A stretch of 38,255 bases of DNA, taken from positions 18,453 through 56,707 of the forward strand of contig JADGCO010000015.1 in assembly GCA_015228935.1 (NCBI GenBank), written 5' to 3'. Below are positions 944 to 23,025 of the stretch, in pieces. Under the pieces are notes generated by a model. The model saw only the letters and a list, made by a program, of their open reading frames with translations. It was not told where the DNA came from and made no database searches. The DNA is from Magnetococcales bacterium (GTDB taxonomy: Bacteria; Pseudomonadota; Magnetococcia; Magnetococcales; DC0425bin3). Position numbers and translations under genes: made by a program. Within the stretch, counting starts at the first letter, position 1. Each line of letters opens with the position of its first letter.

Positions 944-976
944 GATTGTCTCCCTGGGTTCTTTTTTCGGTTGGGA

Positions 977-1381
977 TCATCCATCGACCTGATTCCAGGT
1001 GCGTGGCTTGAATGACATTGAATTGAGAAGGCGTACCGTATCTCCGGATGGGGCGATGACGAAAAGCCCGGCCTTCATGGCCATTTGGGCGACATGGTCC
1101 GGAATGACCATGCCGGCGACGGCACCCATGATGTGCATGTTGGCATAGGTCGGGAAAAAAAGACGATTGCCCATCTCCCCGAGCTGTTTGTCCACCCGAT
1201 CGATCTGGGCATCCACTCTGGCGCTGCGTTCGGCACTGCTTTTGGCGAAGTCATCCATTTTTTTTTGAATACGAATATGTTCAGCCTCTGATCTGAGTTG
1301 ACTTGCTGTTATTTGTTTTTGTTCTTCCGTTATCTGGTCCAGAGTGGCCCAAATCTTGTCGAAAACAGCTTGATAATCCAT
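977..1381 (-). CDS. Coiled-coil protein, copy 3, internally deleted (nuclease-like core lost)
   Basis: This 134-residue paralogue is nearly identical to the full copy at both ends but carries two in-frame deletions. Residues 16-29 of the full copy (one coiled-coil segment) and residues 89-165 are absent; the second deletion joins MGNRL directly to FFPTYANMH and removes the D130 and E143/K145 residues. The reading frame, ribosome binding site and stop are intact, so a stable catalytically dead product is possible, for example as a coiled-coil partner of the other copies. It may equally be a decaying copy. It lies directly downstream of the GGDEF-EAL gene on the same strand, 33 bases from its stop codon, and could be co-transcribed with it. 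Confidence 0.65.
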   Translation of the reverse strand: MDYQAVFDKIWATLDQITEEQKQITASQLRSEAEHIRIQKKMDDFAKSSAERSARVDAQIDRVDKQLGEMGNRLFFPTYANMHIMGAVAGMVIPDHVAQMAMKAGLFVIAPSGDTVRLLNSMSFKPRTWNQVDG

Positions 1382-1414
1382 GATTGTCTCCCTGGGCTTA
1401 TTTTGTTCACTTCG

Positions 1415-4093: not shown

Positions 4094-4190
4094 TTTTTTC
4101 TCCCGATTCCTGGTTTGCGCGACCTGTTTTTCGATCCAGCCGCTCAAGCAGCACACTCTCCCCGTTGCCATTCCGACTGCATGCTGACAA

Positions 4191-4219
4191 ATTATACAAC
4201 CGATGGTGATGTCTGCAAA
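4191..4219 (-). promoter_or_regulatory. Sigma70-type promoter for the GGDEF-EAL gene
   Basis: On the minus strand a perfect TATAAT (4191-4196) is preceded, with 17 bp spacing, by TTTGCA (4214-4219), a partial match to the -35 consensus. The predicted start near 4184 gives a leader of about 90 bases to the GTG start at 4093. The divergent nnr gene begins at 4256, so the two genes share this 160-bp region. Confidence 0.5.
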
Positions 4220-4255
4220 ATTTTCAATTTTTCAACCATATTTTCAAGAGGACAC

Positions 4256-5818
4256 ATGGCCAGATTGCTGACAGGGACCCAGATGGCGGCAGCCGACCGG
4301 CGCACGATCGAGGAACTTGGTCTGCCGGGTATCGTGTTGATGGAAAATGCCGGGGCAGGCGTGGTGGAGACCATTTGGCGGCAGGTGTCCGATCTGGCCC
4401 AGCGCCGCGTGGTGGTGGTGGCGGGATTGGGCAACAATGGTGGGGATGGTTTTGTTGTGGCCCGGCGTTTGTTGCAAAGTGGCGTCAGGGTGCGGGTGTT
4501 TCTGCTTGGCGAGGGAGAACGCCTGCGCGGGGATGCCCTGACCAATTATCGGGTCTTTGTCGGTCTGGGTGGACAATGCCAGTCGGTGACGGGTCCGGAT
4601 GGTCTGGCCCTCCTGCAAGGTGCCCTGGCCCACGCCGGGGTGGTGGTGGATGCCCTGTTCGGGACCGGTTTGCAACGGGAGATCACCGGCCTGTTTGCCG
4701 AGGTGATTCAGGCGATCAATCGGAGTGGCAAACCGGTTCTGGCCGTGGATTTGCCTTCGGGGGTGGCGGCGGATGACGGTCGGGTATTGGGGGTGGCGGT
4801 ACGGGCGGATTGGACCGTCACCTTCGCTGCCGAAAAAATCGGCCATCGAACCCATCCCGGGGCGGCCCTTTGCGGCAAGGTGATTTTGATTCCCATCGGT
4901 ATTCCCCAAACATATCTGGAAATTCCAGAACATCGGGTGGGACGCAACCTGCCGGCGGACCTGACGATTCCAGGGCGGGATCCGGATGGCCACAAGGGAC
5001 GCTTCGGACATTTGTTGATTTTTGCCGGTCGCCGTGGCAAGACCGGTGCGGCCATTCTGGCGACCCGGGGGGCGTTACGCACCGGACCGGGACTGGTCAC
5101 CCTCGCCATACCGGAGCCGGTTTTGCCCCTGGTGGCACCCGGTTTGTTGGAAGCGATGACCCTTCCCTTGCCGGTTGTGCCGGCGACCGGGGAGGTTGTC
5201 GGTGCAGCCCTGCCGGAGGTCGTGGTCGCCGCCGGTGTGCGTCCCACCGCCATGGCCATGGGACCGGGCCTGGGGACGGACCCCGAGGTGTTGCAGGGGT
5301 TACGTGCCCTGTGTAGCCATTTTGACGTGCCGGTGGTGCTGGATGCCGATGCCTTGAACCTTTTGGCCGCCTCCCCGGATGGGGTCCACACCCTGACCCG
5401 GGAACGCCGTTCCCCCCTGGTGCTGACGCCCCATCCCGGTGAAATGGCCCGTCTGGTGCAAAGCGATGTTGCCGGGGTGCAGCGTGACCGGTTGGGGATG
5501 GCAACCCGTTGGGCCGTGACCTGGGGGGTCTGGGTGGTCCTGAAAGGGGCCGGCACGGTGATCGCCGCCCCGGATGGCACGGCCTGGATCAACGACACCG
5601 GCAATCCCGGCATGGCCGCCGGGGGCAGCGGTGATCTCCTTACCGGTATTGTGGGTGGTCTGTTGGCACAAGGATGGCCGGTGGCCAGTGCGGTGCGGGG
5701 CGGGGTGTGGTTGCATGGTGCCGCCGGCGATGCCGTGGCCGCCGAATGCGGCAGTGCCGGCCTGCTGGCCTCGGATTTGTTGCCGCATCTGCAACGGTTG
5801 CGTCATGAGATGAAATAA
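4256..5818 (+). CDS. nnr: Bifunctional NAD(P)H-hydrate epimerase / ADP-dependent NAD(P)H-hydrate dehydratase
   Basis: This 520-residue enzyme repairs damaged nicotinamide cofactors. The N-terminal half (about 1-215, YjeF_N/NnrE fold) epimerises NAD(P)HX; it shows GLPGIVLMENAGAGV and the glycine-rich GLGNNGGDGFVVAR loop. The C-terminal half (about 235-510, NnrD, ribokinase-like) dehydrates the S-form using ADP; it shows GRFGHLLIFAGRRGKTGAA, MGPGLG, LDADALN, LTPHPGEMARL and the GNPGMAAGGSGDLLTG loop. The length matches the usual bifunctional protein. The ATG at 4256 is preceded by AGAGGA; the longer open frame to 3962 runs antisense to the neighbouring gene's coding sequence and is unlikely to be translated. 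It faces the vapC gene tail to tail with only seven bases between them. Confidence 0.95.
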   Translation: MARLLTGTQMAAADRRTIEELGLPGIVLMENAGAGVVETIWRQVSDLAQRRVVVVAGLGNNGGDGFVVARRLLQSGVRVRVFLLGEGERLRGDALTNYRVFVGLGGQCQSVTGPDGLALLQGALAHAGVVVDALFGTGLQREITGLFAEVIQAINRSGKPVLAVDLPSGVAADDGRVLGVAVRADWTVTFAAEKIGHRTHPGAALCGKVILIPIGIPQTYLEIPEHRVGRNLPADLTIPGRDPDGHKGRFGHLLIFAGRRGKTGAAILATRGALRTGPGLVTLAIPEPVLPLVAPGLLEAMTLPLPVVPATGEVVGAALPEVVVAAGVRPTAMAMGPGLGTDPEVLQGLRALCSHFDVPVVLDADALNLLAASPDGVHTLTRERRSPLVLTPHPGEMARLVQSDVAGVQRDRLGMATRWAVTWGVWVVLKGAGTVIAAPDGTAWINDTGNPGMAAGGSGDLLTGIVGGLLAQGWPVASAVRGGVWLHGAAGDAVAAECGSAGLLASDLLPHLQRLRHEMK

Positions 5819-5825
5819 AAAAATA

Positions 5826-6230
5826 TTACTGTTCCCAATCTTCCAATGGCAACGCATTGACCCGTTGGAATTCGCGTGTGTTATGAGTGACCAATATGGC
5901 TTCCAGCGACCGGGCATGGGCAGCAATCAGCGTATCATGGTGGCCTATCGGTTGGCCGCTACGAAGCAGATCGCAACGTATCTGGGCTGCCATGATTGAT
6001 TGATCGTTGCCAAAATCCAAAACTCGAATGTGCTTCAGGAAGTTGGCCAAATTGGCACGATTTTTTTGTGGTTGCCTTGAGTTGCAAACACCGAATTCCA
6101 GTTCATACCGGACAATTTGCGATATCGCGATTTCATTGGGGGAAATCTGGAGCAGATGCTGGCGCAAAGAGGGCGGATTGCCGTTGATGATACCGATGCA
6201 GGCATTGGTGTCCAACATGTAGCGAATCAT
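5826..6230 (-). CDS. vapC: PIN-domain ribonuclease toxin, VapC type
   Basis: This 134-residue protein has the PIN-domain layout of type II toxins that cleave RNA. The first acidic residue is in MLDTNACIG (D7), a conserved glutamate sits in VRYELEFG, the third acidic position is in GHHDTLIAAHA, and VTHNTREF near the C terminus carries the usual final Asn/Glu region. The start codon overlaps the stop of the upstream antitoxin gene by four bases (6227-6230), the typical coupled VapBC arrangement. The catalytic acids look intact. The cellular target, often initiator tRNA for VapC, cannot be judged from sequence. Confidence 0.9.
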   Translation of the reverse strand: MIRYMLDTNACIGIINGNPPSLRQHLLQISPNEIAISQIVRYELEFGVCNSRQPQKNRANLANFLKHIRVLDFGNDQSIMAAQIRCDLLRSGQPIGHHDTLIAAHARSLEAILVTHNTREFQRVNALPLEDWEQ

Positions 6231-6522: not shown

Positions 6523-7683
6523 ATGGAATATCGATCCTTTGGACACACCGGCCGGACGGTGTCGGTTTTCACTCTGGGTGGCATGCGTTTTTTGCATGTC
6601 TGGGACCAGCCGGCGGAGGTGTTGCCGGACGACAGCCTGGAGAATGCTTTTCAGGTAATTGTAACTGCTATCGAAGCCGGGTGCAATCTGATCGAAACGG
6701 CCCAGGGATATCCCAAAAGCGAGGGGTTGATCGGCCATGCCCTGCGCCATCTGCCACCGCGTATGCGCGGCCGGTACCAACTCATGGGCAAGGGATTGAT
6801 TACAGACCCTCCGGGGGCGATGCGTGACAATCTGGAACTGACCTTGCGGCGTCTGGGAGTGAGTCGTCTGGATTTTTACGCCGTGCATGGCATCAACACG
6901 GCGGCGGATTATCAAAAAACCTTTGCACCCCAGGGGTGCCTGGCTGTCCTGGAACAGGCACGTGCCGAAGGATTGATCGGGCATCTGGGCTTTTCTTCGC
7001 ATGCCCCGTTGCCCTTGATGCTGCAAACCCTGAGTACCGCCGCCTTTGATTTTTTCAATGTGCATTATTATGCCCTGCAATCCGGCAACTGGCCGGCCCT
7101 GGCTTTGGCGGCGGCCCTGGGCATGGGGGTTCTCATCATTTCGCCCAACGACAAGGGGGGGATGCTCTATCAACCCTCCGCACGGCTGCAACGCCTCACC
7201 GCTCCCCTGCATCCGGTCAACTACAACGAACGCTGGCTCCTGGCCCATCCCGAGGTGCATACATTGAGTCTGGGTCTGAGCGATCCGGCCCAGATGGCGA
7301 TTCATCTGCAAAGCCTCACTCCCCAGCCCTGGTGGGGTGCTGCCGAACGGGCCGCCGAGCGTCGTTTGCAAGCTGCCGTGCAGGGGTCTGGCCTGGAACG
7401 GTGCCGGATCCACTGCCAACGCTGTCTGCCCTGCCCGGAAAAAATTGATATTCCGGAGTTGCTGCGGCTTTTGAAACTGGCGGTGTGTTATGACATGGTT
7501 GAATTTGGTCGCTATCGTTATGGCAACATGCAACCCGACAATCGTTGGGTTCCGGGTGCCAAGGGGGTGGCGTGCAACCGGTGTGGGGAGTGTCTGCCCC
7601 GTTGTCCGGAGGGGTTGGCCATTCCGGACCGGATGCTGGAAGTTCACAACCTGCTGACAGGCGACGAAAGGGATGATCCATGA
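6523..7683 (+). CDS. Aldo/keto reductase-like oxidoreductase with C-terminal 4Fe-4S ferredoxin motifs
   Basis: This 386-residue protein pairs an aldo/keto reductase barrel (about 1-280) with a C-terminal cysteine-rich domain (COG1453-like design). The likely catalytic set reads E58, Y63, K90 and H122 (IETAQGY, MGKG, VHGIN); most relatives have Asp where E58 stands. The C-terminal part has HCQRCLPCP and CNRCGECLPRCPEGLAIP, matching one or two iron-sulfur clusters, so electrons may pass between NAD(P)H or a substrate and a cluster. The natural substrate is unknown. The start is set at MEYRSFGHTG, where family similarity begins; no strong ribosome binding site precedes it. Its stop overlaps the trmB start (ATGA), suggesting translational coupling. 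Confidence 0.85.
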   Translation: MEYRSFGHTGRTVSVFTLGGMRFLHVWDQPAEVLPDDSLENAFQVIVTAIEAGCNLIETAQGYPKSEGLIGHALRHLPPRMRGRYQLMGKGLITDPPGAMRDNLELTLRRLGVSRLDFYAVHGINTAADYQKTFAPQGCLAVLEQARAEGLIGHLGFSSHAPLPLMLQTLSTAAFDFFNVHYYALQSGNWPALALAAALGMGVLIISPNDKGGMLYQPSARLQRLTAPLHPVNYNERWLLAHPEVHTLSLGLSDPAQMAIHLQSLTPQPWWGAAERAAERRLQAAVQGSGLERCRIHCQRCLPCPEKIDIPELLRLLKLAVCYDMVEFGRYRYGNMQPDNRWVPGAKGVACNRCGECLPRCPEGLAIPDRMLEVHNLLTGDERDDP

Positions 7684-8435
7684 GCCGTTTTTCCCAGACC
7701 AATGAAGATCTGAGCCAGCCCGGTCCCGGCCCGGGAGAAGCGCTCCGTTCTGCACCGAACCCAGGTCCGGATCTGTGGCGTTTCAAGACCTACGGACGCA
7801 AGCAGGGACATTTGACCGGGTCGGAAAGGGGACGGCTCGAAGAAATATTGCCCGGCCAGTGTCTGGAAGCGGCTTCCGGGCGGGAAATATTTTTGCAACA
7901 ATGGGGGGCGGAACCGGTTGCGGAACATTTGTGGGTGGAGATTGGTTTTGGCAATGGGGATTATCTGGCCCATCTGGCCGGTCGCCATCCCCGGGATGCC
8001 CTGATCGGCATCGAGGTGTTTCTCGAAGGGATTGCCTCCCTGCTGCGCAAACTGGCAGCCAACGGACAGCGCAATGTGCGCGTGGTTCGTGGCCATGCCC
8101 ATCCCATTCTGCGTGACCTGTTGCCGGATGCCAGCATTGACCGGGTGATCATCAACTTTCCCGATCCCTGGCCCAAAAAGCGCCATCACAAACGTCGCCT
8201 GATCCAAACGGAATTTCTTGATTTGTTGGCGTTGAAAATGCGCCCCCAGGGCCGTCTCACCCTGGCGACCGATTGGCAGGAGTATGCCGAATGGATGGCC
8301 GCGACCATCAGTGTTCATCCGGCCTTTGTGGGCGGTCCGTCGGCTCCTCCGGAAGAGTGGATCGTCACCCGCTTTCAGGAAAAAGGCCACCTGGCTGGTC
8401 GCCCGACGTTTTATTTTTCATATGTAAGGAATTGA
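7680..8435 (+). CDS. trmB: tRNA (guanine-N7-)-methyltransferase
   Basis: This 251-residue enzyme would methylate N7 of G46 in the variable loop of tRNAs using S-adenosylmethionine. It shows the SAM-binding motif EIGFGNGDYLAHLA, the acidic IGIEVF strand, the family signature INFPDPWPKKRHHKRRL and the late TDWQEYAEWM motif. The first 80 or so residues are less conserved, with a Pro/Gly-rich start. It overlaps the preceding reductase gene by four bases and converges on the ferredoxin reductase gene, from which six bases separate it. Length and motifs are normal for TrmB. Confidence 0.95.
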   Translation: MSRFSQTNEDLSQPGPGPGEALRSAPNPGPDLWRFKTYGRKQGHLTGSERGRLEEILPGQCLEAASGREIFLQQWGAEPVAEHLWVEIGFGNGDYLAHLAGRHPRDALIGIEVFLEGIASLLRKLAANGQRNVRVVRGHAHPILRDLLPDASIDRVIINFPDPWPKKRHHKRRLIQTEFLDLLALKMRPQGRLTLATDWQEYAEWMAATISVHPAFVGGPSAPPEEWIVTRFQEKGHLAGRPTFYFSYVRN

Positions 8436-8441
8436 AAAGAT

Positions 8442-9257
8442 TCACCAATATTTTTCAACATGCAGATTGCCGGGTTCCTTGCGGCTGCCGGGATCGAAGC
8501 CCCATGCCTGGAAAGTCTGCATGCCATCTTCCACCAGATCGGGATGGCCGCATAAAAAAATGTGGGTGTGGGCCGGATCCGGGGCAAAACCGCTGATTTC
8601 CTGCAAACGTTCCGGGGTGAACCATTCGGTCAGGCGACCGGTGCGACCTTGCCAACCGGTCTCCTCCTGGGGGCGGGAGACGACCGGGGCATAACGAACG
8701 GTGGGACATTTCTGGCTGAGGGCTTCGAGATCGGCGCGATAGCCCAGGTCCCAGGAGTGGCTGGCACCATGCAGAATGGCCAGGGGCATGGCAGGACACC
8801 GGGTGGCCATGGCCAGGGTGCGCACCATGCTGAGATAGGGAGCCAGTCCCGTTCCCGTGGCCACCAACAGAATGTTCTGTCCCGGGGGAACCCGGTCCAG
8901 GGTAAACATGCCCGTGGCTTTGGGTCCCACGAAAAGCCGATCCCCGGTTTTGAGGGCAAAAAGGCGCGGCGTCAATTGACCACCGGTCACCAGGGCAATA
9001 TAAAATTCCAGATAATCGGTCTCGTGGCTGCCGGAACTGATGGAGTAGGCCCGGCGAATCAGGCGGTCGGCCTTCTCCGGCGGGACGGTTTCCGGATCGG
9101 CATCCGCCACCCGGGGGGCAGCCTGCCGCAGACCCAGGACCGTGAATTGCCCCGGTACGAAAGAGATCGGAAAATCCGGTCGAATCCGCAGAATGATCAG
9201 GCGGGGAGAAATGTCCAGTCGTTGGATCAATGTGGCATTGTCGGGTGTGGCGGTCAT
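8442..9257 (-). CDS. fpr: Ferredoxin--NADP+ reductase
   Basis: This 271-residue flavoprotein exchanges electrons between NADPH and ferredoxin or flavodoxin. The FAD-binding motif is RAYSISSG (RxYS), the flavin/phosphate region lies around LVTGGQLTPRLF, the pyridine-nucleotide loop is VATGTGLAPYLS, and FLCGHPDLVEDG matches the CGxP motif. The terminal VEKYW is typical of bacterial Fpr proteins, whose final aromatic residue stacks on FAD. AGGAAA precedes the ATG at moderate distance. It is divergent from the SspB-like gene and convergent with trmB, so it is probably transcribed alone. Confidence 0.93.
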   Translation of the reverse strand: MTATPDNATLIQRLDISPRLIILRIRPDFPISFVPGQFTVLGLRQAAPRVADADPETVPPEKADRLIRRAYSISSGSHETDYLEFYIALVTGGQLTPRLFALKTGDRLFVGPKATGMFTLDRVPPGQNILLVATGTGLAPYLSMVRTLAMATRCPAMPLAILHGASHSWDLGYRADLEALSQKCPTVRYAPVVSRPQEETGWQGRTGRLTEWFTPERLQEISGFAPDPAHTHIFLCGHPDLVEDGMQTFQAWGFDPGSRKEPGNLHVEKYW

Positions 9258-9329
9258 GGTGGCCTGTTTCCTGATGTCTGGTCTCCGAAACCTTGCCGTG
9301 GCGCGGTCGGAATGTTATAGGATGGTCGC

Positions 9330-9908
9330 ATGATACACGATCAACAAGTTGGCAAGGGAGAGGTGATTCGCACCCTGTTGGAACGGGAGGGGCGGGTCAT
9401 GCTCTGTGTGGACGCCACCTGCAAAGGGGTGGAGGTGCCGCGCCGCTTTGCCTCGGACACCGGTTTGCGCCTGGTCCTCAATACCAAAATGCCCCAATCC
9501 ATCGAAATCGGTCTCCGGACCGTCGAGTCCGAGTTGCGCTTTGGCGGCATTCCGCATTATTGCATCATTCCCTATGAGGCGCTGTGGGGGGCGTTCAATC
9601 CCGATTCGGGGCAGGGCATGTTGTGGCCGGAGGCCATGCCGGAACAGCTTCGCAAAGGTTATTTCGCCGCCCAGAATGTCGTCGGTGACAAACAGGGTTC
9701 CAGCCAGGTCACTCCCTTGGGCATCGTGCCGGCGGTGCAGGGTGCTGCAGCCGGGGAGGGGCAGGCCGGGGAAGGTCGCGAACAGCGCGAAAGCGAGGAA
9801 CGACCCAAACTTGCCGTCATTCAGGGGTGCGTCAACCCGGATGCGGCTCCACCACCCGATGGCAAAAAAAAATCCTCTGCCCGCAATCATCTGCGTCTCG
9901 TCAAATAA
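9330..9908 (+). CDS. sspB: SspB-like ClpXP adaptor
   Basis: This 192-residue protein resembles SspB, the adaptor that binds ssrA-tagged peptides and delivers them to ClpXP. The conserved fold is seen in residues 8-105: VMLCVDATCKGVEVPRRFA, LVLNTKMPQSIEIGLRTV and ELRFGGIPHYCIIPYEALWGAF, matching the SspB pattern 'DG.IVLNIS...F.ARFGG....I.VP..AV..I.A'. The remaining 85 residues are low complexity, rich in Q, G, E and A, like the flexible tether that ends in a ClpX-binding tail in known SspB proteins; here the tail ends SSARNHLRLVK, and basic/hydrophobic RLVK-like tails fit that role. It is followed 20 bases later by ruvA. Confidence 0.85.
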   Translation: MIHDQQVGKGEVIRTLLEREGRVMLCVDATCKGVEVPRRFASDTGLRLVLNTKMPQSIEIGLRTVESELRFGGIPHYCIIPYEALWGAFNPDSGQGMLWPEAMPEQLRKGYFAAQNVVGDKQGSSQVTPLGIVPAVQGAAAGEGQAGEGREQRESEERPKLAVIQGCVNPDAAPPPDGKKKSSARNHLRLVK

Positions 9909-9928
9909 ATCATTGAGAGAGTCCTTTC

Positions 9929-10549
9929 ATGATCGCACGGCTGCGGGGTGTGTTGGCGGATAAGCAGCCCAACCAGGTTCTGGTGGATGTGGGAGGGGTC
10001 GGGTATCGGGTTTTCATTCCCTTTTCCACCTACACGCAGTTGCCCAATGTGGGCGAAGCCGCCGAACTGTGGACCGTTACTTTCGTTCGGGAAGATTTGA
10101 TTCACCTGTATGGTTTTGCCACTCAGGAAGAAAAGGTCCTATTTAATTTATTGATCGGGGTTTCCGGGGTGGGGGGTCGCCTGGCCCTGGCTGTTCTTTC
10201 GACGCTTGCCCCTGCCGTCATTCTGGACGCCCTGGCCCGGGAGGATGTGACCACCCTCAGCCGGGTACCCGGCATCGGCAAAAAAACCGCCCAGCGTTTG
10301 GCCATGGAATTGAAAGAGAAGGTGGCCACGGTGGCCTGTTCCATCTCCCCCACGGCCAATCTTCCCGGACCTCCCGGATCCAACACCCCATCGCCTCCCG
10401 CGCTCCTGAAGGCAGAATTGACCTCGGCCCTGATCAATCTTGGCTTCAAGCCCGCCCAGGTCGAACAAACCCTGCGCCGGGTTCTTACCCAGGATACCGT
10501 GCGTCTGGAGGACGGATTGCGTCTGGCCCTGAGGGATTTGTCGGCCTGA
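9929..10549 (+). CDS. ruvA: Holliday junction branch migration protein RuvA
   Basis: This 206-residue protein binds four-way DNA junctions and loads RuvB. The N-terminal OB fold (MIARLRGVLADKQPNQVLVDVGGVGYRVFIP) is followed by two helix-hairpin-helix motifs (LLIGVSGVGGRLALAVLS and LSRVPGIGKKTAQRLAMELKEKV) and, after a Pro/Ser linker, the RuvB-binding domain III (ELTSALINLGFKPAQVEQTLRRVL). All three domains are present and length is normal. GAGAGAG lies eight bases before the ATG. Neither ruvC nor ruvB is adjacent: the next gene is a TA remnant, so the usual ruvABC order is not kept here, or ruvB has been separated. Confidence 0.95.
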   Translation: MIARLRGVLADKQPNQVLVDVGGVGYRVFIPFSTYTQLPNVGEAAELWTVTFVREDLIHLYGFATQEEKVLFNLLIGVSGVGGRLALAVLSTLAPAVILDALAREDVTTLSRVPGIGKKTAQRLAMELKEKVATVACSISPTANLPGPPGSNTPSPPALLKAELTSALINLGFKPAQVEQTLRRVLTQDTVRLEDGLRLALRDLSA

Positions 10550-10651
10550 AAAGCAACCGTACCTCATCCTGTCAAGGATCTTTCTCTCCCCATTCTCAAG
10601 AGTATTGAGCGTCAGACGAAGATGAAAATCAGGTAATGTAGGAGGTGTTTT

Positions 10652-10855
10652 ATGGAAATTCGGCATTACCCGGCCATTCTCTACCGTAGACGCATCCTTA
10701 TCCGAACAGAAATTCCCTGCCGATGGGTTCGGCTTAATCTTTCCATGGCCGAGACCTTGGTATTGCAGGTCGATCATGCTGCCAAGGCATTGGGCATGAA
10801 CCGGTCCGGGTACCTGGCCGAAGCGGCGCGACAGATGCTGTCCAGGAGTACTTGA
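10652..10855 (+). pseudogene. hicB antitoxin remnant with internal deletion
   Basis: The 67-codon frame starts after an excellent ribosome binding site (AGGAGG, six bases before the ATG) with MEIRHYPAILYR, the usual opening of a HicB antitoxin. After about 12 residues it jumps to VRLNLSMAETLVLQVDHAAK and MNRSGYLAEAARQML, the C-terminal ribbon-helix-helix DNA-binding domain of the same family. The whole central UPF0150 (toxin-binding) domain, normally about 60-70 residues, is gone. A short protein that still binds DNA is conceivable, but it should not neutralise a toxin. No hicA lies beside it on the same strand. It runs tail to tail into the intact hicBA pair, three bases away. Confidence 0.65.
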
Positions 10856-10858
10856 TTG

Positions 10859-11077
10859 TCATGATTCGAGGAATGCGTCCACAGGCAGACCTGACTGACG
10901 TATGATGGCCCGCAGGGTACCACGGTCCAGTTGTTTGTGATCGGGCACCACCAGTTGCGAGAAAGGGTTATTCCGTTGCACCACCATATGGCTGCCCTTT
11001 TGGCGCATCAACCGAAAGCCGTAGCGTTCCAATATGGCCAAGCATTCGCGACCGGAAAGTTGTGGCAGTCGGTTCAC
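10859..11077 (-). CDS. hicA: HicA-type mRNA interferase toxin
   Basis: This 72-residue protein has the double-stranded RNA-binding-like HicA (YcfA) fold. SGRECLAILERYGFRLMRQKGSHMVV contains the catalytic histidine in GSH (H30), and the C-terminal LDRGTLRAIIRQSGL motif is standard. HicA toxins cleave mRNAs in a translation-independent manner. The gene starts within the last four bases of hicB, so the order is antitoxin first, the reverse of the classical hicAB operon but common in this subfamily. It is intact, unlike the hicB remnant next to it on the other strand and the hicA relic at 22193. Confidence 0.9.
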   Translation of the reverse strand: MNRLPQLSGRECLAILERYGFRLMRQKGSHMVVQRNNPFSQLVVPDHKQLDRGTLRAIIRQSGLPVDAFLES

Positions 11078-15009: not shown

Positions 15010-15444
15010 TTATGTTGTCACCACAGACTGCCTCCATTGGTCAAGAGGAATGACCATGGAAGCCCAAGAAGTGCCTGTCAGCTTGGATACCAAACGCCGG
15101 TCTGCTGTGACCATGGGGGCATTTTCACGCTCTGCCAAAGCAAGGTAATAACAGTCATAGGGTGAATGATTCAGTTCCCGGGACAAGCGATAGGCTGAGT
15201 GAGACAACCCGGCCATGGGTACCAGGGAAAAATATATGGGCAGTTCTTTCAACATCCGATGTACGAGTGCGTCAGTGGCCATATCGGCCTTCACCATTTT
15301 CCATGCCACGCTGGTTACTTCGGCCACGAGCCATTCAGGGGCAAGCATCGGCCACCCAGACATCAATACTTTCATGGCGTGTTCGCGATACGAAACATTC
15401 AAGAACCATCCTACACAAACACTGGCATCTACCACAAGCTTCAT
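15010..15444 (-). CDS. PIN-domain toxin (VapC/FitB-like)
   Basis: This 144-residue PIN-domain protein starts MKLVVDASVCVGWFL with the first catalytic aspartate (D6) in VVDAS. It has the conserved glutamate in LVAEVTSVAWK, an acidic position in NHSPYDCYYLALAE and the last in MVTADRRLVSKL. VVDAS rather than VDTN places it in the subgroup usually paired with ribbon-helix-helix antitoxins (FitB-like). It overlaps the upstream antitoxin gene by four bases. All catalytic acids are present, so it should be an active ribonuclease. Confidence 0.9.
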   Translation of the reverse strand: MKLVVDASVCVGWFLNVSYREHAMKVLMSGWPMLAPEWLVAEVTSVAWKMVKADMATDALVHRMLKELPIYFSLVPMAGLSHSAYRLSRELNHSPYDCYYLALAERENAPMVTADRRLVSKLTGTSWASMVIPLDQWRQSVVTT

Positions 15445-15746
15445 CGTCTCTCCCGGTCTTCACGAATCATGGCCACCACATCTACATCAATTTGTTTTGA
15501 TCCCATGGCAGCAATTTGATCAGCAGTACTCACAAGGTAGTCCACACTTGTGAAGGCCATCCTTGCCTCACGCTCAGCATTGATCAAGTGGGCAGATTCT
15601 GGTGCCAAATCTTTCCTGGCAGCGGATAATGCCCCGATCAGGATCTCGCGTAGCGATTGTTCCAATGATTGACATTGCGCTGCCGCCCTGTCCTTGAGCT
15701 GTTTGATCATTTCATCGTCCATATTCCGGATTACCAATTCACCCAT
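15441..15746 (-). CDS. Ribbon-helix-helix antitoxin (FitA-like)
   Basis: This 101-residue protein starts MGELVIRNMDDEMIKQLKDRAAAQCQS, the FitA/Arc-type ribbon-helix-helix signature ('l.iRnlddev...Lk.rAa..grSlEaelReiL'), followed by LEQSLREIL and a charged C-terminal half that would wrap the PIN toxin. GAGGAGG lies seven bases upstream. It should repress its own operon and block the toxin. A very similar arrangement recurs at 35763-36441. Confidence 0.88.
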   Translation of the reverse strand: MGELVIRNMDDEMIKQLKDRAAAQCQSLEQSLREILIGALSAARKDLAPESAHLINAEREARMAFTSVDYLVSTADQIAAMGSKQIDVDVVAMIREDRERR

Positions 15747-15852: not shown

Positions 15853-18800
15853 TCAACGTGGAACATCAACCGGAACCGATGGTTGCCAGGCCTGGGCGGC
15901 CTGGGCAGCCCGGGCTGCCACCTCCATGGGCAGGATACGGGCCAGTGAAGCCCGGCGGACCATGACATCGACGGTTTTTTTCTCCGTATCTGTCTGTTCG
16001 AAAATGTGCGTGGCAACGGCATAATGAAACAAGGCTTTTTCCAGATCCACGGGCACCACTCCCTCCCGTCCCAGCTCGTAGAGCCAACCCAGCCTCTGGT
16101 GGGCGACAGGATCACCCAGGTCTGCGCCCTGTTGCCAGAGGCGCAGGGCGGTTTGACGCATCTGGGGAACACCTTCGCCATTCCACCACCGGGTTGCCTG
16201 CTGGGTGGCATCGATGGCCTGGGAAGGAATGTGACTCTCTGCATGGGAAAAACGGAAACGGTCTCCGGCCATCTGGTCATGCAGGTGTGCATGATTTTCC
16301 GACCTTCCGGGCGAATCATTTTCGGACTCCCTGGCAAGAAAGTTCAATTTTCGCTCGTTTCTGGTCAAGGGCCGCAGGACGGACACATTGGCAACGCTCA
16401 ACAGATTGGCCAGATTCAATCCCGATACATCCCACACCCGGGTCGTTTTGTCCCAGGAGAATGTGTGTATTTTCGTTCCATCCGGGCTGAAGGTGGCTCT
16501 CAGGACACTTTCCGAATGCCCACGCAATGTGGCAATTTCGGCCCCGCTCTGCACATCCCATACCCGGGCTGTTTTGTCTTCGGAGGCCGTGACCACCTGT
16601 GATCCATCCGGGCTGAACGTGGCGGAATTGACATTTTTTTCATGCCCATGCAGGGTGACGATCCCGGTTCCACTTCTGGCATCCCACACCCGGGCCGTGC
16701 CGTCCCAGGAAGCTGTCACGATCTGTGCCCCATCCGGGCTGAACGCGGCGGAATAGACTTCACCCTCGTGCCCGGACAAGACCACCATCTCGGCACCACT
16801 TTGCACGTCCCATACCCGGGCGGTATTGTCCCAGGATGCCGTGACCACCCGCGTTCCATCCGGACTGAACGCTGCGGATTGAACCGGTTTTCCATGGCCA
16901 CGCAGAACGGCCATTTCGGTTCCGTCCGCCACCCGCCACACCCGGACAGTCCGGTCATGGGATGCTGAAACAACCTGTATGCCATTCGGGCTGAACGCGG
17001 CAAAATGTACCGGATCCGTGTGCCCATGCAGGTGGGCAATCATGGCCCCGCTCTGTGCATTCCATACCCGGACGGTTTTGTCATCGGAGGCCGTGACCAC
17101 CCGCGACCCATCCGGACAGAATGCTGTGGATTTGACCGGCTTTTCATGTCCGCGCAATACGGCGATTTCGGCTCCGTTCTGCACCTTCAATACCCGCAGG
17201 GTATTGTCCTGGGACGCCATGACCACCTGTTCTCCATCCGGGCTGAAGGCAACGGATTCGATGGCAGCCGGGTGTTTGATCGTGGCGGTAATTCTGGAAC
17301 TGCTCTGTACATTCCAGATTCTGACAGTCTTTTTTCCCTTTGAGATGACCCGGGTTCCATCCGGGAAGAACGCGGCGGAGTTGACCGGATTTTCATGACC
17401 GTACAAGGCGGTGATTTCGGTTCCGCTCCTGGCATTCCAGACCCGGACGGTTTTGTCATCGGATGTTGTGACAATCTGTGTTCCATCCGGGCTGAACACG
17501 GCGGAATTGATCCAACCCTTGTGCCCACGCAGGGCCACGATGCCGGTTCCGCTCCGTGCATCCCATACCCGGGCGGTCGAATCATCCGCCGCCGTGACCA
17601 GCATGGTTCCATCCGGGCTGAACTCGGCGGATTTGATCCGTCCTTCATGTCCGTGCAGGAGAACCACCTCGGCCCCGCTCCCGGCATCCCATAACCGGGC
17701 CGTCTTGTCGAGTGAGATGGTAATCACGCGCGTTCCATCCGGGCTGAATGCCGCCGAGATGACCTCTTTTTCATGCCCACGCAAGAGAGCGACCCTGGCC
17801 CCGTTTCCGGCATTCCAGATTCGGGCGGTTTTATCCTGGGACATGGTGACAACTTTTGTACCATCCGGGTTGAATGTGGCAGAGTAGACATCATCCACAT
17901 GTCCACGCAGAACGGCAACTTCGGTCCCGCGCTCCACATCCCACACCCGGGCAGTTTTGTCATGCGATGCCGTCACCACCCGTGTTCCATCCGGGCTGAA
18001 CACGGCAGAGTTGACGCGATCTTCATGTCCACGTATGACAACCATTTCGGTCCCACTCTGCGCATCCCATATTCGGGCCGTTCGATCATGCAACGCCATG
18101 ACGACCCGGGTTCCATCCGGGCTGAACACGGCGGAATTGACCCAATCCTTCAGTCCGTGCAAGACAGCGACCTCGGTTCCGTTCTGCGTATTCCACACCC
18201 GACTGGTGTTGTCCAGAGACGCCGTGATCACCCGCGTCCCGTCCCGGTTGAACACGACGGAGTTGACCCAATGCTCATGTCCGCGCAGCACGACAACCTC
18301 GGCCCCGCTCCGGGCATCCCATATACGGGCAGTCCTGTCCCAGGAGGCTGTGACCACCCATTTGCCATCCGGGCTGAGAGTCGCAAAATCGACCACATCC
18401 TCATGGCCACGCAAAACGGCCAGCGTCGCGTCTTTTTCCCGGATCCTGGAGAGGGCGTTGACCGCCCCGGGAACCAGGGGCCAGTCCGGATTGGACAGGC
18501 CGCGAGGCAGCGCGGCAAGGACCAGGTTCAAGGCCAGGTCAGTCTGGTTTTTTTCCAGGACTGCCAAGGCTCTTTCCGCGAGAAAACTGGACTGATTCTG
18601 CCGCGCTTTGCGCAGTTGATTCTGAATTTCCTGGGAATTTTTTGTCGCCATCCGGGCAAGGTGCCGGGCTTCCCGAAAGTTTTCCGTCGCAATCAGGTAA
18701 TTGCGCCACGCCAGCCATCCCCCGACCATGGCCAGGACCAGCAACACACCCATCGTGGCCATGGTCAGACGTGTCCGCCTGATTTTGCGCTTTTGCGCCG

Positions 18801-21800
18801 CATCTTTTTCTGCCAGCATCCGGCGGCAGGCATGACTGGAACTTTCGATGAAAGTGACAATTCCGCTGCACAGTTCATGGCGCCGCCGATGCAGGAGGTC
18901 TTCGGCCTCGGAAAGCGGCAAACCCGGGGCCAGCAACAGGGCATCCCGGTCTTTTTCCCGGGTTTCATGCCATCGGGTTGCAGCCTGTTCCAGACGTGCC
19001 CGGGTCTGGATGTCCTGCCGGTCGATCTGGATCTGTTTGCGGATTCGCGCCCAATGGGTCAGCAATGCCTCATGGGCAATCCGTATCTGTGCCCGTTCCC
19101 CATTCCCGTATACAACCAACAAGCGGGCAGCCAGGTATGCCTGGACAATCTCACGCCAGGGATGCCTTTCCGGGAATACGCTCATGGCAACCGTGCGGGC
19201 CGTGGCATGGCTTGATTCATCCTGTTCGACAGTCACCAGGATGCGAAAAACCTCGAACAACTTTTCCCGGACGGCGGCTGGCAGGGTGTCATGAACGGCT
19301 TCGGCCCGTTGCCCCAGCGACCCTTCCAGACCACCCATGGCGCGGTAGGCACTCATGGGCAATACCCCCTGTTCAGTTCGCTGTTGCCAAAGCTGTTCCA
19401 GGGTAAACTCCAGCAGAGGCAGGGCATGGGGATTGTCACCCACGGCCTGCAACAAGATTTCATCCAGCGTGGTACCGGTTTCCGGGTCCGTATCGAACCG
19501 CAGTCCCGCCTCCCGGGCCGGATGTCGAATCATCTGACCGATTTCCGCCGCAGCCGGAGGCAGCAGAAGATAACGCGCCTCTTCCGGCAACCATTTTTTC
19601 AGGTTGGGCAAGGCTGCCAGGCGGTGAAAAAAATCACTGCGCATGGTGGCCACGACCCAGCAGAGGCCCGAGCGGGCCAGGGTTTCCAAAACGGCTACGA
19701 AGGCCTCGCGTTCCTGACTGGTGATGCCGTCCAGGGTGAACAGCTCTTCGAACTGATCCACGATGATCAGCAGGACGGCCCTGGCTTTCCGGCTCAGATG
19801 TGCCGTTTCACCAGCCTTGTGCAACCCGAACCGAACGGTTTGGATCACCCCGTCGGGTGCGCCAAGCCGGAGGGCATCGATCAGGGTATTCGGGCTGAAA
19901 TCCGTGGATGCCAGTTCCGGCAGGGCAGTCCTGGACAGCATGGCCGCTGCCAATGCCTCAAGCAGATCGGTTGGATTGTCCCCGGGGCACAGGATGGCGT
20001 AACGACACAGGGCGACATGTTCCACCACCCCGGGTGTCATCAGGTCCGGCAGCAGACCGGCCTTGACCAGGGAAGATTTGCCACTGCCACTGGCCCCCAG
20101 GACCAGGACGAAAGCGCACTGCCGCTCGACCCGGCGGACCAGAATGTCACGCAGTTCATGCCGTGCCTGGGTCCGTCCGTGAAACACCCGCGCATGTTCC
20201 GGATCAAACGACTCCAAACCGCGAAACGGACTCCCTTCGCTCCAGCCTCCCGCCACCTCGTTCGCATCGCCCGCCACCGAACCAAAACGTTCCCGGAGCA
20301 GCTCCCGCAAGCGTTGTTCCAGCATGTCTTCGAACCGGGTCACATGCTCGAAGGGATGCAGTTCCGCCTGGATGGGATCAAGGCTTGCGTCCCGAAACCA
20401 GGTGCCGATGAATTCATCCACCTGGTTCATCCGGGCCTTGATGCGTTGTGCCACCGCCCAGTTTTCCAGGTCGGCCCGGATGGGGACGTTTTTCTTGAAA
20501 ACCAGTAAATCCGGACGACCACGAATCTTTTGCGCGGCCACCGCATCGGCAAATTCCCACTCGGTGCCACTGTCGATGGTACGTTCCCGGACAAGAATTT
20601 TCGACTCTTCGTTGATCCTGGTCGGAATTTCTTCTTCCGTCGGCGCATCGATTCCGGTCTCGGCCAGAACCGGTGCCCGGGATACGACACCTTCCGACTT
20701 CCGTATTCCGGATTCGATGCGCGACCACAAGATGACCACCATGGTGTCGCTTTGCGACGGCCTGACATAGGTTTTCCAGGTCCTCGTGGAAAACAGGGAG
20801 TCCCGTTCCCAGTAAACCGCCTCCAGCAACACCTTGCTGCCAAACTCCTGCTGCAACCGCTCCACCACCCGCTGGACAATCACCCGTTCCGGCGTGACAT
20901 CCCGGGGCGCGGAAATGTAGACCCGATGCAAAACGAGTTCGCCAAACAACTCGGCCTGCCACTGGGAAATGGATTGCGGGCGTTCCCGGGGATGAAGAGA
21001 CAGACCATGTTCCACAGCCCGTAAAAACGCTTCCTGATACCCCTGGTCTCGCCATTCCAACAAGGGAACCAGGGGATCCAGGCTGTTGTCGTTGACGGTC
21101 TGCCAACGAAGCATGGCATCCGGCGGACGTTTGCCGGTGATCACCCAATACAGGACACTGGCCAGGGCATGAATATCTGTCCACGGCCCCTGGTCGAAAT
21201 GGCTGTTCGAATACTGTTCTATCGGGGCAAATCCAGGCGTATAGATGGCTGTGGCATTCTGGATCTGTCCGTGAACCGATTGGCGGGCGGCACCAAAATC
21301 CAGCAAAACCGGCATGCCGTCGCTGCTGCGGATGAATATGTTGTCCGGTTTGATATCCCGGTGGAGAATCTGTGCCTTGTGCATCTTGTCCAGCCCGGAC
21401 AGCAGCGGCTTGAGCAGGCGCAGCAATGCCGCTTCGCTGACCCGTCCGTCCTGGCTCTTCACCCACTCCTTCAGACTGACCCCGTCCTCGAACTCCATGA
21501 CCATGTAGGCCGTGCCATGGGCTTCGAAAAAACGCAATACCCGCACAATATTCGGGTGCTGAAACATGGCCAATATGCGGGCTTCGTCCAGAAACCGTCT
21601 TTTCCACTCCGAAAACATGGTTACGGATGCTTCCGTATTGGGCCAGACGCTGATCCCATCCCGATGGGAAAATTGTCGCGGAAAAAATTCCTTGATGGCG
21701 ACTTTTTTATCCAGATGAATGTCCCGCGCCAGATAGGTCACACCGAAACCACCCTGACCCATGATCTTCAGGATTTCATATTCGTGAAACATGTGCCCTT

Positions 21801-21834
21801 CGGGCAGGGTCAAGGCAGGGGTACCTCTGTTCAT
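15853..21834 (-). CDS. Giant Ser/Thr kinase - TIR/DUF4062-like - STAND NTPase - WD40 - Sel1 protein
   Basis: This 1993-residue protein has several modules. Residues 16-295 are a complete Hanks-type kinase: GQGGFG loop (26-31), lysine in AIKEF (K48), HRDIKPDN, and DFGAAR. Residues about 300-520 (HRVYISAPRDVTPERV, SDTMVVILWSRI, GTEWEFADAV, PDLLVFKK) resemble the DUF4062/TIR-like domains placed before STAND ATPases. Residues about 535-1000 are an nSTAND1-type NTPase with Walker A GASGSGKSS near 580 and Walker B LLIIVDQFEELF near 688. One membrane helix sits near 1025-1048 (MATMGVLLVLAMVGGWLAW). Sixteen WD40 repeats fill about 1136-1805. A Sel1-like helical repeat (RLGWLYELGREGVVPVDLEKALFHYA) lies near 1880-1941. 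STAND proteins sense a ligand through their repeats and oligomerise; here phosphorylation is the likely output. The start lacks a strong ribosome binding site; M15 is an alternative. Confidence 0.88.
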   Translation of the reverse strand: MNRGTPALTLPEGHMFHEYEILKIMGQGGFGVTYLARDIHLDKKVAIKEFFPRQFSHRDGISVWPNTEASVTMFSEWKRRFLDEARILAMFQHPNIVRVLRFFEAHGTAYMVMEFEDGVSLKEWVKSQDGRVSEAALLRLLKPLLSGLDKMHKAQILHRDIKPDNIFIRSSDGMPVLLDFGAARQSVHGQIQNATAIYTPGFAPIEQYSNSHFDQGPWTDIHALASVLYWVITGKRPPDAMLRWQTVNDNSLDPLVPLLEWRDQGYQEAFLRAVEHGLSLHPRERPQSISQWQAELFGELVLHRVYISAPRDVTPERVIVQRVVERLQQEFGSKVLLEAVYWERDSLFSTRTWKTYVRPSQSDTMVVILWSRIESGIRKSEGVVSRAPVLAETGIDAPTEEEIPTRINEESKILVRERTIDSGTEWEFADAVAAQKIRGRPDLLVFKKNVPIRADLENWAVAQRIKARMNQVDEFIGTWFRDASLDPIQAELHPFEHVTRFEDMLEQRLRELLRERFGSVAGDANEVAGGWSEGSPFRGLESFDPEHARVFHGRTQARHELRDILVRRVERQCAFVLVLGASGSGKSSLVKAGLLPDLMTPGVVEHVALCRYAILCPGDNPTDLLEALAAAMLSRTALPELASTDFSPNTLIDALRLGAPDGVIQTVRFGLHKAGETAHLSRKARAVLLIIVDQFEELFTLDGITSQEREAFVAVLETLARSGLCWVVATMRSDFFHRLAALPNLKKWLPEEARYLLLPPAAAEIGQMIRHPAREAGLRFDTDPETGTTLDEILLQAVGDNPHALPLLEFTLEQLWQQRTEQGVLPMSAYRAMGGLEGSLGQRAEAVHDTLPAAVREKLFEVFRILVTVEQDESSHATARTVAMSVFPERHPWREIVQAYLAARLLVVYGNGERAQIRIAHEALLTHWARIRKQIQIDRQDIQTRARLEQAATRWHETREKDRDALLLAPGLPLSEAEDLLHRRRHELCSGIVTFIESSSHACRRMLAEKDAAQKRKIRRTRLTMATMGVLLVLAMVGGWLAWRNYLIATENFREARHLARMATKNSQEIQNQLRKARQNQSSFLAERALAVLEKNQTDLALNLVLAALPRGLSNPDWPLVPGAVNALSRIREKDATLAVLRGHEDVVDFATLSPDGKWVVTASWDRTARIWDARSGAEVVVLRGHEHWVNSVVFNRDGTRVITASLDNTSRVWNTQNGTEVAVLHGLKDWVNSAVFSPDGTRVVMALHDRTARIWDAQSGTEMVVIRGHEDRVNSAVFSPDGTRVVTASHDKTARVWDVERGTEVAVLRGHVDDVYSATFNPDGTKVVTMSQDKTARIWNAGNGARVALLRGHEKEVISAAFSPDGTRVITISLDKTARLWDAGSGAEVVLLHGHEGRIKSAEFSPDGTMLVTAADDSTARVWDARSGTGIVALRGHKGWINSAVFSPDGTQIVTTSDDKTVRVWNARSGTEITALYGHENPVNSAAFFPDGTRVISKGKKTVRIWNVQSSSRITATIKHPAAIESVAFSPDGEQVVMASQDNTLRVLKVQNGAEIAVLRGHEKPVKSTAFCPDGSRVVTASDDKTVRVWNAQSGAMIAHLHGHTDPVHFAAFSPNGIQVVSASHDRTVRVWRVADGTEMAVLRGHGKPVQSAAFSPDGTRVVTASWDNTARVWDVQSGAEMVVLSGHEGEVYSAAFSPDGAQIVTASWDGTARVWDARSGTGIVTLHGHEKNVNSATFSPDGSQVVTASEDKTARVWDVQSGAEIATLRGHSESVLRATFSPDGTKIHTFSWDKTTRVWDVSGLNLANLLSVANVSVLRPLTRNERKLNFLARESENDSPGRSENHAHLHDQMAGDRFRFSHAESHIPSQAIDATQQATRWWNGEGVPQMRQTALRLWQQGADLGDPVAHQRLGWLYELGREGVVPVDLEKALFHYAVATHIFEQTDTEKKTVDVMVRRASLARILPMEVAARAAQAAQAWQPSVPVDVPR
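16423..18450 (-). repeat. Sixteen tandem WD40 repeat units (126-bp period)
   Basis: The coding sequence repeats every 126 bp (42 residues; one unit has 41). Each unit follows the pattern LRGHEx-V-SAxFSPDGTxVVTASxDKTARVWDxxSGAEV. The GH and WD positions are kept in most units; the ninth and tenth units are the most diverged (GH lost, IWN or VLK in place of WD). Sixteen blades suggest two seven- or eight-bladed propellers. High similarity among units at the DNA level suggests growth by unequal exchange. Confidence 0.9.
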
Positions 21835-22192: not shown

Positions 22193-22319
22193 ATGAATAG
22201 CAACGAACTCTTGCGAAAGCTCAGGAAGCTTGGACAAGAGGGAGTTGGCCGTCGGCACGGTTCACGCCATATGTTGGCAACTGGGAATCGACCCCAAAGA
22301 CATCCAGGAACGAACATGA
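22193..22319 (+). pseudogene. hicA toxin gene collapsed by internal deletion and frameshift
   Basis: The stretch begins MNSNELLRKLRKLGQE, a typical start for the HicA type paired with HTH-containing HicB. The same DNA read in another frame ends GTVHAICWQLGIDPKDIQERT followed by a TGA that overlaps the hicB ATG, which matches the HicA C terminus. The central part, including the catalytic GSH region, is missing and the two ends are in different frames. About 40 codons appear lost. The toxin must be inactive. The frame that starts here now reads through into hicB (see 22316-22753). Confidence 0.7.
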
Positions 22320-22753
22320 TCAGCCATCACAGCTATCCAGTGCGTTTAATCGAGGAGCCGGAAACTGGGCTGATACGCGCCCAACTCTTGGACTGGGGGG
22401 AAGCGGAGACCTGCGGCAATGATTGTCAGGATGCACTGGCCATGGCTGCTGATCTGCTGGAAACCTTGGTCAGTATTGCGGTGGCGGAAGATACCCCGAT
22501 TCCTGAACCTTCCATTGTCCTGGGAGCGCAAACAGTATCGCTATCCGCTGTGAGTGCCGCCAAGGTGGAACTGTACTTGGCACTACGCGAATCAGGAATA
22601 ACCCAAGCGGATCTGGCGCGACGATTGAGATGGCACCCACCCCAGGTTTTTCGATTATTGGATCTGCGCCATAACTCCAAAATGGACCAGTTGGAGCAGG
22701 CCTTGGCTGCTCTCGGTAAGCGCTTGGTGGTCTCCGTCCAGGACGCAGCGTGA
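22316..22753 (+). CDS. hicB: HicB-type antitoxin with HTH domain
   Basis: This 145-residue antitoxin has an N-terminal HicB fold (HHSYPVRLIEEPETGLIRAQLLDWGEAETCGNDCQDALAMAADLLETLV) and a C-terminal XRE-type helix-turn-helix (LYLALRESGITQADLARRLRWHPPQVFRLLDL). It looks intact and should still repress its promoter. ATG 22316 overlaps the old hicA stop and has AGGAACG upstream. Because the hicA relic is now in frame with it, initiation at 22193 would give a 186-residue protein with a 41-residue N-terminal extension. With its toxin gone it is an orphan antitoxin, possibly protective against related HicA toxins. Its stop (TGATG) overlaps the start of the DUF2442 gene. Confidence 0.85.
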   Translation: MISHHSYPVRLIEEPETGLIRAQLLDWGEAETCGNDCQDALAMAADLLETLVSIAVAEDTPIPEPSIVLGAQTVSLSAVSAAKVELYLALRESGITQADLARRLRWHPPQVFRLLDLRHNSKMDQLEQALAALGKRLVVSVQDAA

Positions 22754-23025
22754 TGGACCGGTTTCAATTCATGACCCCCGAAATTCTGGAAGTGGCACCG
22801 TTACCCGATTATCACCTCGAATTGCGTTTTGCCGATGGTGAGGTACGTTTGTTTGATGCACGTCCCTACCTGGAGCGGGGTATTTTTCAAAAATTGCGCA
22901 ATCCGCACCTTTTTTCCCAGGCGCGGGTGGCGTTGGGTACCGTCACATGGCCAGGCGAGATGGATTTGGCTCCAGAGACTCTTTATTTGCGATCAACGCC
23001 GGTTTCATCATCTCCAAGGCCCTGA
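22753..23025 (+). CDS. DUF2442 domain protein
   Basis: This 90-residue protein has the DUF2442 pattern: PLPDYHLELRFADGEVRLFDARPYL followed by LFSQARVALGTVTWPGEMDLAPETLY. DUF2442 proteins are usually the second gene after a DUF4160 gene in a suspected toxin-antitoxin-like module; here the upstream partner is hicB instead. The ATG shares bases with the hicB stop (TGATG), so translation is probably coupled. The C-terminal STPVSSSPRP tail departs from the family and may mark an altered end. A second DUF2442 gene is at 29064. Confidence 0.8.
   Translation: MDRFQFMTPEILEVAPLPDYHLELRFADGEVRLFDARPYLERGIFQKLRNPHLFSQARVALGTVTWPGEMDLAPETLYLRSTPVSSSPRP

Follow-up and report, generated by a model that had tools for sequence, protein, structure and literature searches.

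Receptors of the NLR-like STAND type are considered to evolve by swapping effector and sensor modules while the nucleoside triphosphatase (NTPase) stays constant, and to our knowledge the intermediate steps of this exchange are rarely seen. STAND proteins multimerize on induction (PMC6468293); DUF4062 was shown to be a TIR-like family of NAD+-cleaving enzymes (NADases) that acts against phages (preprint PMC13174449); and in planctomycete kinases a location of the kinase inside and the WD40 repeats outside the cell is also predicted (PMC11032199). Here, we analyzed a 38,255-nucleotide stretch of a Magnetococcales genome (contig JADGCO010000015.1, positions 18,453 to 56,707; hereafter the window), in which one gene encodes a Ser/Thr kinase, a TIR/DUF4062-like domain, an nSTAND1 NTPase, a membrane helix, WD40 repeats, and a Sel1-like tail. 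A putative new effector, an old effector, and the constant core thus stand in one chain, and the old effector alone shows lost constraint. We place about even weight on the reading that this is a membrane STAND receptor, with its N terminus inside and its C terminus outside, in which the kinase has replaced, or is replacing, the TIR-like NADase as output.

The gene is an open reading frame (ORF) of 1993 amino acids at 15853-21834 on the minus strand, with an ATG start and no interruption. Both the frame and the domain order were as given in the original prediction, made from the letters of the window, and the domains lie as follows.

20947..21792, minus strand: Hanks-type Ser/Thr kinase domain, residues ~15-296, from the Pfam Pkinase match, the motifs, and the grouping with kinases of its own genome
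20275..20931, minus strand: TIR/DUF4062-like domain, diverged, residues ~302-520, from the alignment, DUF4062 matches in relatives, models, and the fold match
20587..20697, minus strand: insert of ~30-37 residues in the TIR-like domain, residues ~380-416, from the alignment and low model confidence
20554..20556, minus strand: Glu427, the candidate catalytic Glu, invariant alignment column E131
18952..20229, minus strand: nSTAND1 NTPase, residues 536-961, from Pfam PF20703, with Walker A and B intact
18712..18768, minus strand: membrane helix, residues 1023-1041, predicted N-in/C-out from hydropathy and Lys/Arg bias
16405..18414, minus strand: 16 WD40 repeats, predicted sensor propellers, residues ~1141-1810, from the repeat register, Pfam WD40, and a 126-bp DNA periodicity
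16021..16110, minus strand: Sel1-like repeat in the C-terminal tail, residues ~1909-1938, from Pfam Sel1 and a similar tail in the relative L063

Analysis of the TIR-like domain showed a marked loss of conservation. The domain was aligned with its relatives in 29 rows, built from a search of the order and a scan of GTDB genomes, and a site was counted as conserved when at least 85% of the other members agreed at it. Such sites were changed in 16 of 41 cases in the TIR-like domain, compared to 4 of 78 in the adjoining nSTAND1 domain (Fisher p = 6e-6), and in the other members the change at conserved sites of the TIR-like domain was never more than 27%. Only the TIR-like domain has lost constraint, and nSTAND1 is very well conserved. 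Measured on the nSTAND1 tree, the terminal-branch ratio of TIR to nSTAND1 for this protein was 2.57 (5-95% range, 1.94-3.69). A good example of the changes is the set F306Y, S309A, Q354K, and G374E, all at positions that are identical in 28 of 28 aligned relatives. The residues on the pocket side are not all intact, with Q354K and G374E changed and 18 of 47 conserved sites changed in all; that the changed positions line the pocket is what we infer from the topology. The insert, which the relatives do not have, adjoins the SGTEWEF motif on its N-terminal side. Because of the excess of changed sites over nSTAND1, the TIR-like domain may have ceased to work as an effector, and the original prediction's reading of it as a second effector-associated domain beside the kinase is not supported in that form. 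The lost constraint of the old effector beside an intact new one is the most interesting feature of the protein and was absent from that prediction.

The identity of this domain is best seen in its relatives. On their own, residues ~302-520 gave only a sub-threshold match to SEFIR (E 0.004-0.005) and no match to Pfam DUF4062, which was matched by 23 of the 29 aligned relatives (best E 6e-8). The name SEFIR was therefore dropped, the match being sub-threshold and limited to this protein. AlphaFold2 modeled the domain with a confidence (pLDDT) of 79 and an unstructured insert (most of local residues 84-118 having a pLDDT <50), and the fold search with this model was ambiguous, the insert being disordered. 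The domain of L063, which has no insert, was modeled in its place (pLDDT 93.5), and its two best Protein Data Bank (PDB) matches were plant RPS4 TIR domains, with E values of 1e-4 and 6e-4 and modest TM-scores of ~0.4. A beta-alpha topology is present in both models, and a sequence search of the TIR-like and NTPase parts against PDB chains returned no credible relative. Because most relatives match DUF4062 and the L063 model is best matched by a plant TIR domain, a TIR/DUF4062-like assignment of residues 300-520 is supported, by profile and by model, as regards family and fold. The same call in the original prediction was borne out, and neither of the outcomes named there as refuting was seen: the fold appears TIR-like, and the distribution of the relatives is patchy, not that of a housekeeping gene. 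By analogy, Glu427 is the candidate catalytic residue; it is invariant across the family and kept in this protein, whereas Glu425 is not invariant, being Ala in L054 and L114. GTEWEF, W370, and R372 are retained as well. GTEWE was among the search patterns of the GTDB scan, so that its conservation among them partly reflects how they were selected; the sites that changed lie elsewhere.

The kinase and the NTPase on either side appear to be in good order. Pfam Pkinase matched residues 19-239 (E 4.7e-37, 128 bits against a cutoff of 31.7), and the motifs are complete (GQGGFG at 26, VAIKE at 45, HRDIKPDN at 158, DFG at 179, and PGFAPIEQ at 200), so by its motifs this is an apparently intact Hanks-type Ser/Thr kinase. 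Pfam nSTAND1 (PF20703) matched residues 536-961 (E 5.3e-92, 309.8 bits against a curated cutoff of 27.1), with a complete Walker A (GASGSGKS at 580) and Walker B (LIIVDQFEE at 689).

The kinase and the TIR-nSTAND1 core have separate origins. In the kinase tree, the kinase clustered with four others encoded by its own genome (support 1.0), while in the nSTAND1 tree the protein was placed within the TIR-nSTAND1 clade, next to proteins from its own order (0.86) and away from the kinase-nSTAND1-WD40 proteins that occur in Chloroflexota and Actinomycetota. Descent from the latter was dropped, since both trees separate the protein from them. An in-frame kinase was found in none of ~48 TIR-nSTAND1 relatives, although for a few of them the start of the contig restricts what can be seen, and the order with a kinase is as unusual as originally proposed. 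Two candidates, in which the TIR-like domain starts near residue 285, were set aside: the extension in L065 is probably an over-read frame, and that in L055 consists of FHA domains. Three of these four sister kinases in the same genome, 47-49% identical to this kinase, carry an FGE-sulfatase domain (L010), nine Sel1 repeats (L011), or DUF4384 (L012). This means that the kinase acts as a module mobile on a local scale, and that its family swaps C-terminal modules. Because the kinase tree points to its own genome, the nSTAND1 tree to the TIR-nSTAND1 clade, and no relative has a kinase, the fusion is most simply explained as independent and lineage-local.

Residues 1023-1041 are the strongest hydrophobic stretch of the protein (hydropathy, 1.97), with seven Lys/Arg residues before the helix and two after it. 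More Lys/Arg before than after the helix was found in 28 of the 30 proteins with a clear helix following nSTAND1, and helix position and charge bias are kept in most relatives, the most divergent members having no helix. Because of this excess before the helix, the NTPase is predicted to lie inside and the WD40 sensor outside. The original prediction had likewise separated NTPase and sensor by a helix, with the propellers on the far side or the complex tethered to the membrane; the helix is a conserved feature of the family, and the far-side location agrees with the charge bias as a prediction. Pfam WD40 covers the C-terminal half (E 3e-153), with 16 repeats in register at a 42-amino-acid spacing (one gap of 41) and a mean identity of 52%, and the coding DNA has the 126-bp periodicity. 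Pfam Sel1 matched near residues 1909-1938 (E 1e-7).

The relatives form a modular, single-gene family of TIR-like domain, nSTAND1, helix, and variable C terminus that occurs patchily in many phyla. The C-terminal modules include FGE-sulfatase/CLec (FGE in L046 and L047), WD40 (L050, L052, L053, L054, L060, and L063), TPR, OpgC, and RHS-like repeats, and the nSTAND1 domains are up to 54-57% identical to that in the window. L063, from a deltaproteobacterial metagenome-assembled genome (MAG), has the same order minus the kinase, its WD40 part being 49% and its Sel1-like tail 35% identical. Three other members differ in layout. In a Bradyrhizobium relative (L058:5959-9156), a multi-pass OpgC acyltransferase domain (Pfam E 7e-86) takes the place of the sensor, a combination that is unusual for a STAND NTPase. 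In a planctomycete (L055:2112-4397), three FHA domains precede TIR-like and nSTAND1 domains, a second link of the family to phosphorylation. In a Nitrospirales MAG (L062:5974-10515), TIR-like and nSTAND1 domains are followed by a long series of RHS-like repeats, possibly with PDZ at the end. The TIR-like domain was found in 6 of 48 genomes of the order, including the one studied here, and in the other five it always precedes nSTAND1; the family was present in 11 of 385 genomes in the class sample (E 1e-20) and, at a looser cutoff (E 1e-8), in 19 of 398 in the phylum sample. Viral contigs gave five weak matches only, and plasmids almost exclusively nSTAND1-only matches. An all-against-all comparison of the neighbors at ~29 loci found no partner gene conserved across relatives; a conserved operon partner was dropped, as shared neighbors occurred only in close species or were coincidental transporter matches.

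The neighbors in the window are chemotaxis genes, ABC and EamA transporter genes, and two toxin-antitoxin (TA)-like pairs. One pair lies downstream of the receptor gene (a FitA-like ribbon-helix-helix protein and a PIN protein, 15010-15746) and the other upstream (a helix-turn-helix protein and DUF2442, 22193-23025, plus strand). Of the defense-island-like setting first proposed, the flanking TA-like genes and the AT-rich upstream stretch are real, but a defense island is not supported. No defense genes other than the TA-like pairs were found in the window, where PADLOC gave nothing meaningful beyond the kinase part, which matches kinase models (PD-T4-6 and mad6). The relatives share no common partner gene, and ten neighbors of four relatives (L063, L053, and L054, which are WD40-type, and L058) gave no PADLOC defense match. 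PADLOC on 78 neighbors of relatives returned restriction-modification (R-M) and some effector matches in a scan that had no control set and was not used as evidence of islands. In a genome of the same genus, the flanking gene blocks sit on separate contigs, and a homologue of the receptor gene was not found. A defense role is plausible by family, not by context. Elsewhere in the same genome (contig G000:C115; L181) there is a complete diversity-generating retroelement, with a reverse transcriptase at 4645-5679 on the minus strand, a template repeat at 5760-5877, and variable repeats at 4277-4394 and 7356-7473. In each variable repeat, 10 of 10 mismatches to the template fall at template adenines. 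The element targets two proteins, one of NACHT-FGE type (ORF 969-4403) and one of TIR-NACHT-FGE type (ORF 7347-10907). This textbook element diversifies a TIR-NACHT-FGE protein, and STAND conflict receptors are therefore part of this genome's biology.

How the protein works can be pictured as follows. The extracytoplasmic WD40 propellers, with the Sel1-like tail, would sense a ligand or a damage signal, which would pass through the single helix so that the cytoplasmic nSTAND1 exchanges nucleotide and oligomerizes, bringing the N-terminal domains together. What is clustered in this way in the ancestral family would be the TIR/DUF4062-like NADase, and in the present protein a member of the genome's own family of kinases would have been fused in front of it. 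The kinase is the likely present output because it was fused in front of a TIR-like domain that has lost much of its conservation; it could be activated by proximity and trans-autophosphorylation, the TIR-like domain being retained mainly as a connector. We suggest, with somewhat less than even confidence, that an effector swap is in progress, in which the resident kinase became the output and the old TIR-like NADase a pseudo-enzyme coupling kinase to NTPase. Several observations weigh against a shift of output in a membrane receptor. Similarly high branch ratios were found in the close sisters L038 and L039, the only ones higher, on very short branches. The fast change could reflect a new substrate instead of decay, and with Glu427 and GTEWEF intact NADase activity could persist. 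Finally, the helix is moderately hydrophobic, and the periplasmic export of 16 WD40 repeats is a prediction only.

The retained residues (Glu427, GTEWEF, W370, and R372), the intact kinase motifs, and the NADase activity shown by experiment for DUF4062 domains (PMC13174449) would also suit a receptor with two active outputs, in which one signal leads to both phosphorylation and NAD+ cleavage. We consider this unlikely, as constraint was lost in the TIR-like domain alone and Q354K, G374E, and the insert are in or beside the presumed active-site loops. The kinase might otherwise be a regulator that phosphorylates its own receptor (the TIR-like insert or the NTPase) or a partner and sets the threshold, with the TIR-like domain staying the output at a changed specificity. 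The phosphothreonine-reading FHA domains fused to the same core in L055 tie phosphorylation to the family repeatedly, and the insert contains Ser/Thr and is unstructured in the model; the strongest conserved-site changes, however, are in the TIR-like domain, as expected if it is no longer the output, and we regard a regulatory kinase as rather improbable. Whichever domain is the output, the role could be that of an anti-phage abortive-infection receptor. Bacterial immunity involves proteins of the STAND, TIR, and DUF4062 kinds (PMC13174449; PMC10907252), the single-gene distribution is patchy (five other genomes of 48 in the order and 19/398 in the phylum), TA pairs stand on both sides, and type I R-M or other PADLOC matches lie near some relatives. 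This last scan lacked a control set, however, the window showed no defense genes beyond the TA-like pairs, the ten neighbors of the four relatives gave no PADLOC match, and an outward-facing sensor fits external signals better than intracellular phage proteins, so that we see this role as a distinct possibility but tend to doubt it. An assembly chimera, with the kinase misjoined to the core, or a decaying gene might come to mind for a fusion seen in no other genome, in a draft of 197 contigs. The single frame, however, stays open over 1993 codons with neither a stop nor a frameshift where kinase and core meet, every kinase and NTPase motif is intact, and nSTAND1 is very well conserved, which makes this highly improbable.

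A shift of output from the TIR-like domain to the kinase, if true, is a testable case of an NAD+-depleting immune receptor becoming a signaling kinase, and offers a natural route by which STAND sensing is fed into protein phosphorylation. The effector swap, if true, turns a suicide receptor into a phosphorylation-signaling receptor.

Compared with known systems, the protein is closest in its core to the nSTAND1 conflict proteins (FGE/CLec versions; PMC8195603, PMC10907252), with which it shares the core order, the helix position, and the solitary gene. The TIR-nSTAND1 relatives differ in that none of the ~48 has a kinase and their TIR-like domain is conserved and without insert. The kinase-nSTAND1-WD40 proteins (L086, L090, L101, L105, L121, L124, and L125) also have a kinase in front, nSTAND1, helix, and WD40, but they have no TIR-like domain and their kinase and nSTAND1 are in other clades; this likeness is therefore convergence, not descent. 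The DUF4062-type TIR-like domain is shared with Swarozyc and other DUF4062 NADases, and TEP1 and NWD1 combine TIR-like, NACHT, and WD40 domains (PMC13174449), whereas the present protein has nSTAND1 instead of NACHT, a membrane helix, a kinase in front, and a diverged TIR-like domain. In the membrane Ser/Thr kinases of Ca. Uabimicrobium, a cytoplasmic kinase, a helix, and predicted periplasmic WD40 repeats are arranged as predicted here, and the available text of that source mentions neither a STAND NTPase nor a TIR-like domain separating the kinase from the sensor (PMC11032199). Receptors of the Apaf-1/NLR type have in common with this protein the logic of effector, NTPase, and WD40 sensor, but they are soluble and have neither kinase nor membrane helix. 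Among known STAND receptors, the protein encoded in the window represents a variant with a new architecture.

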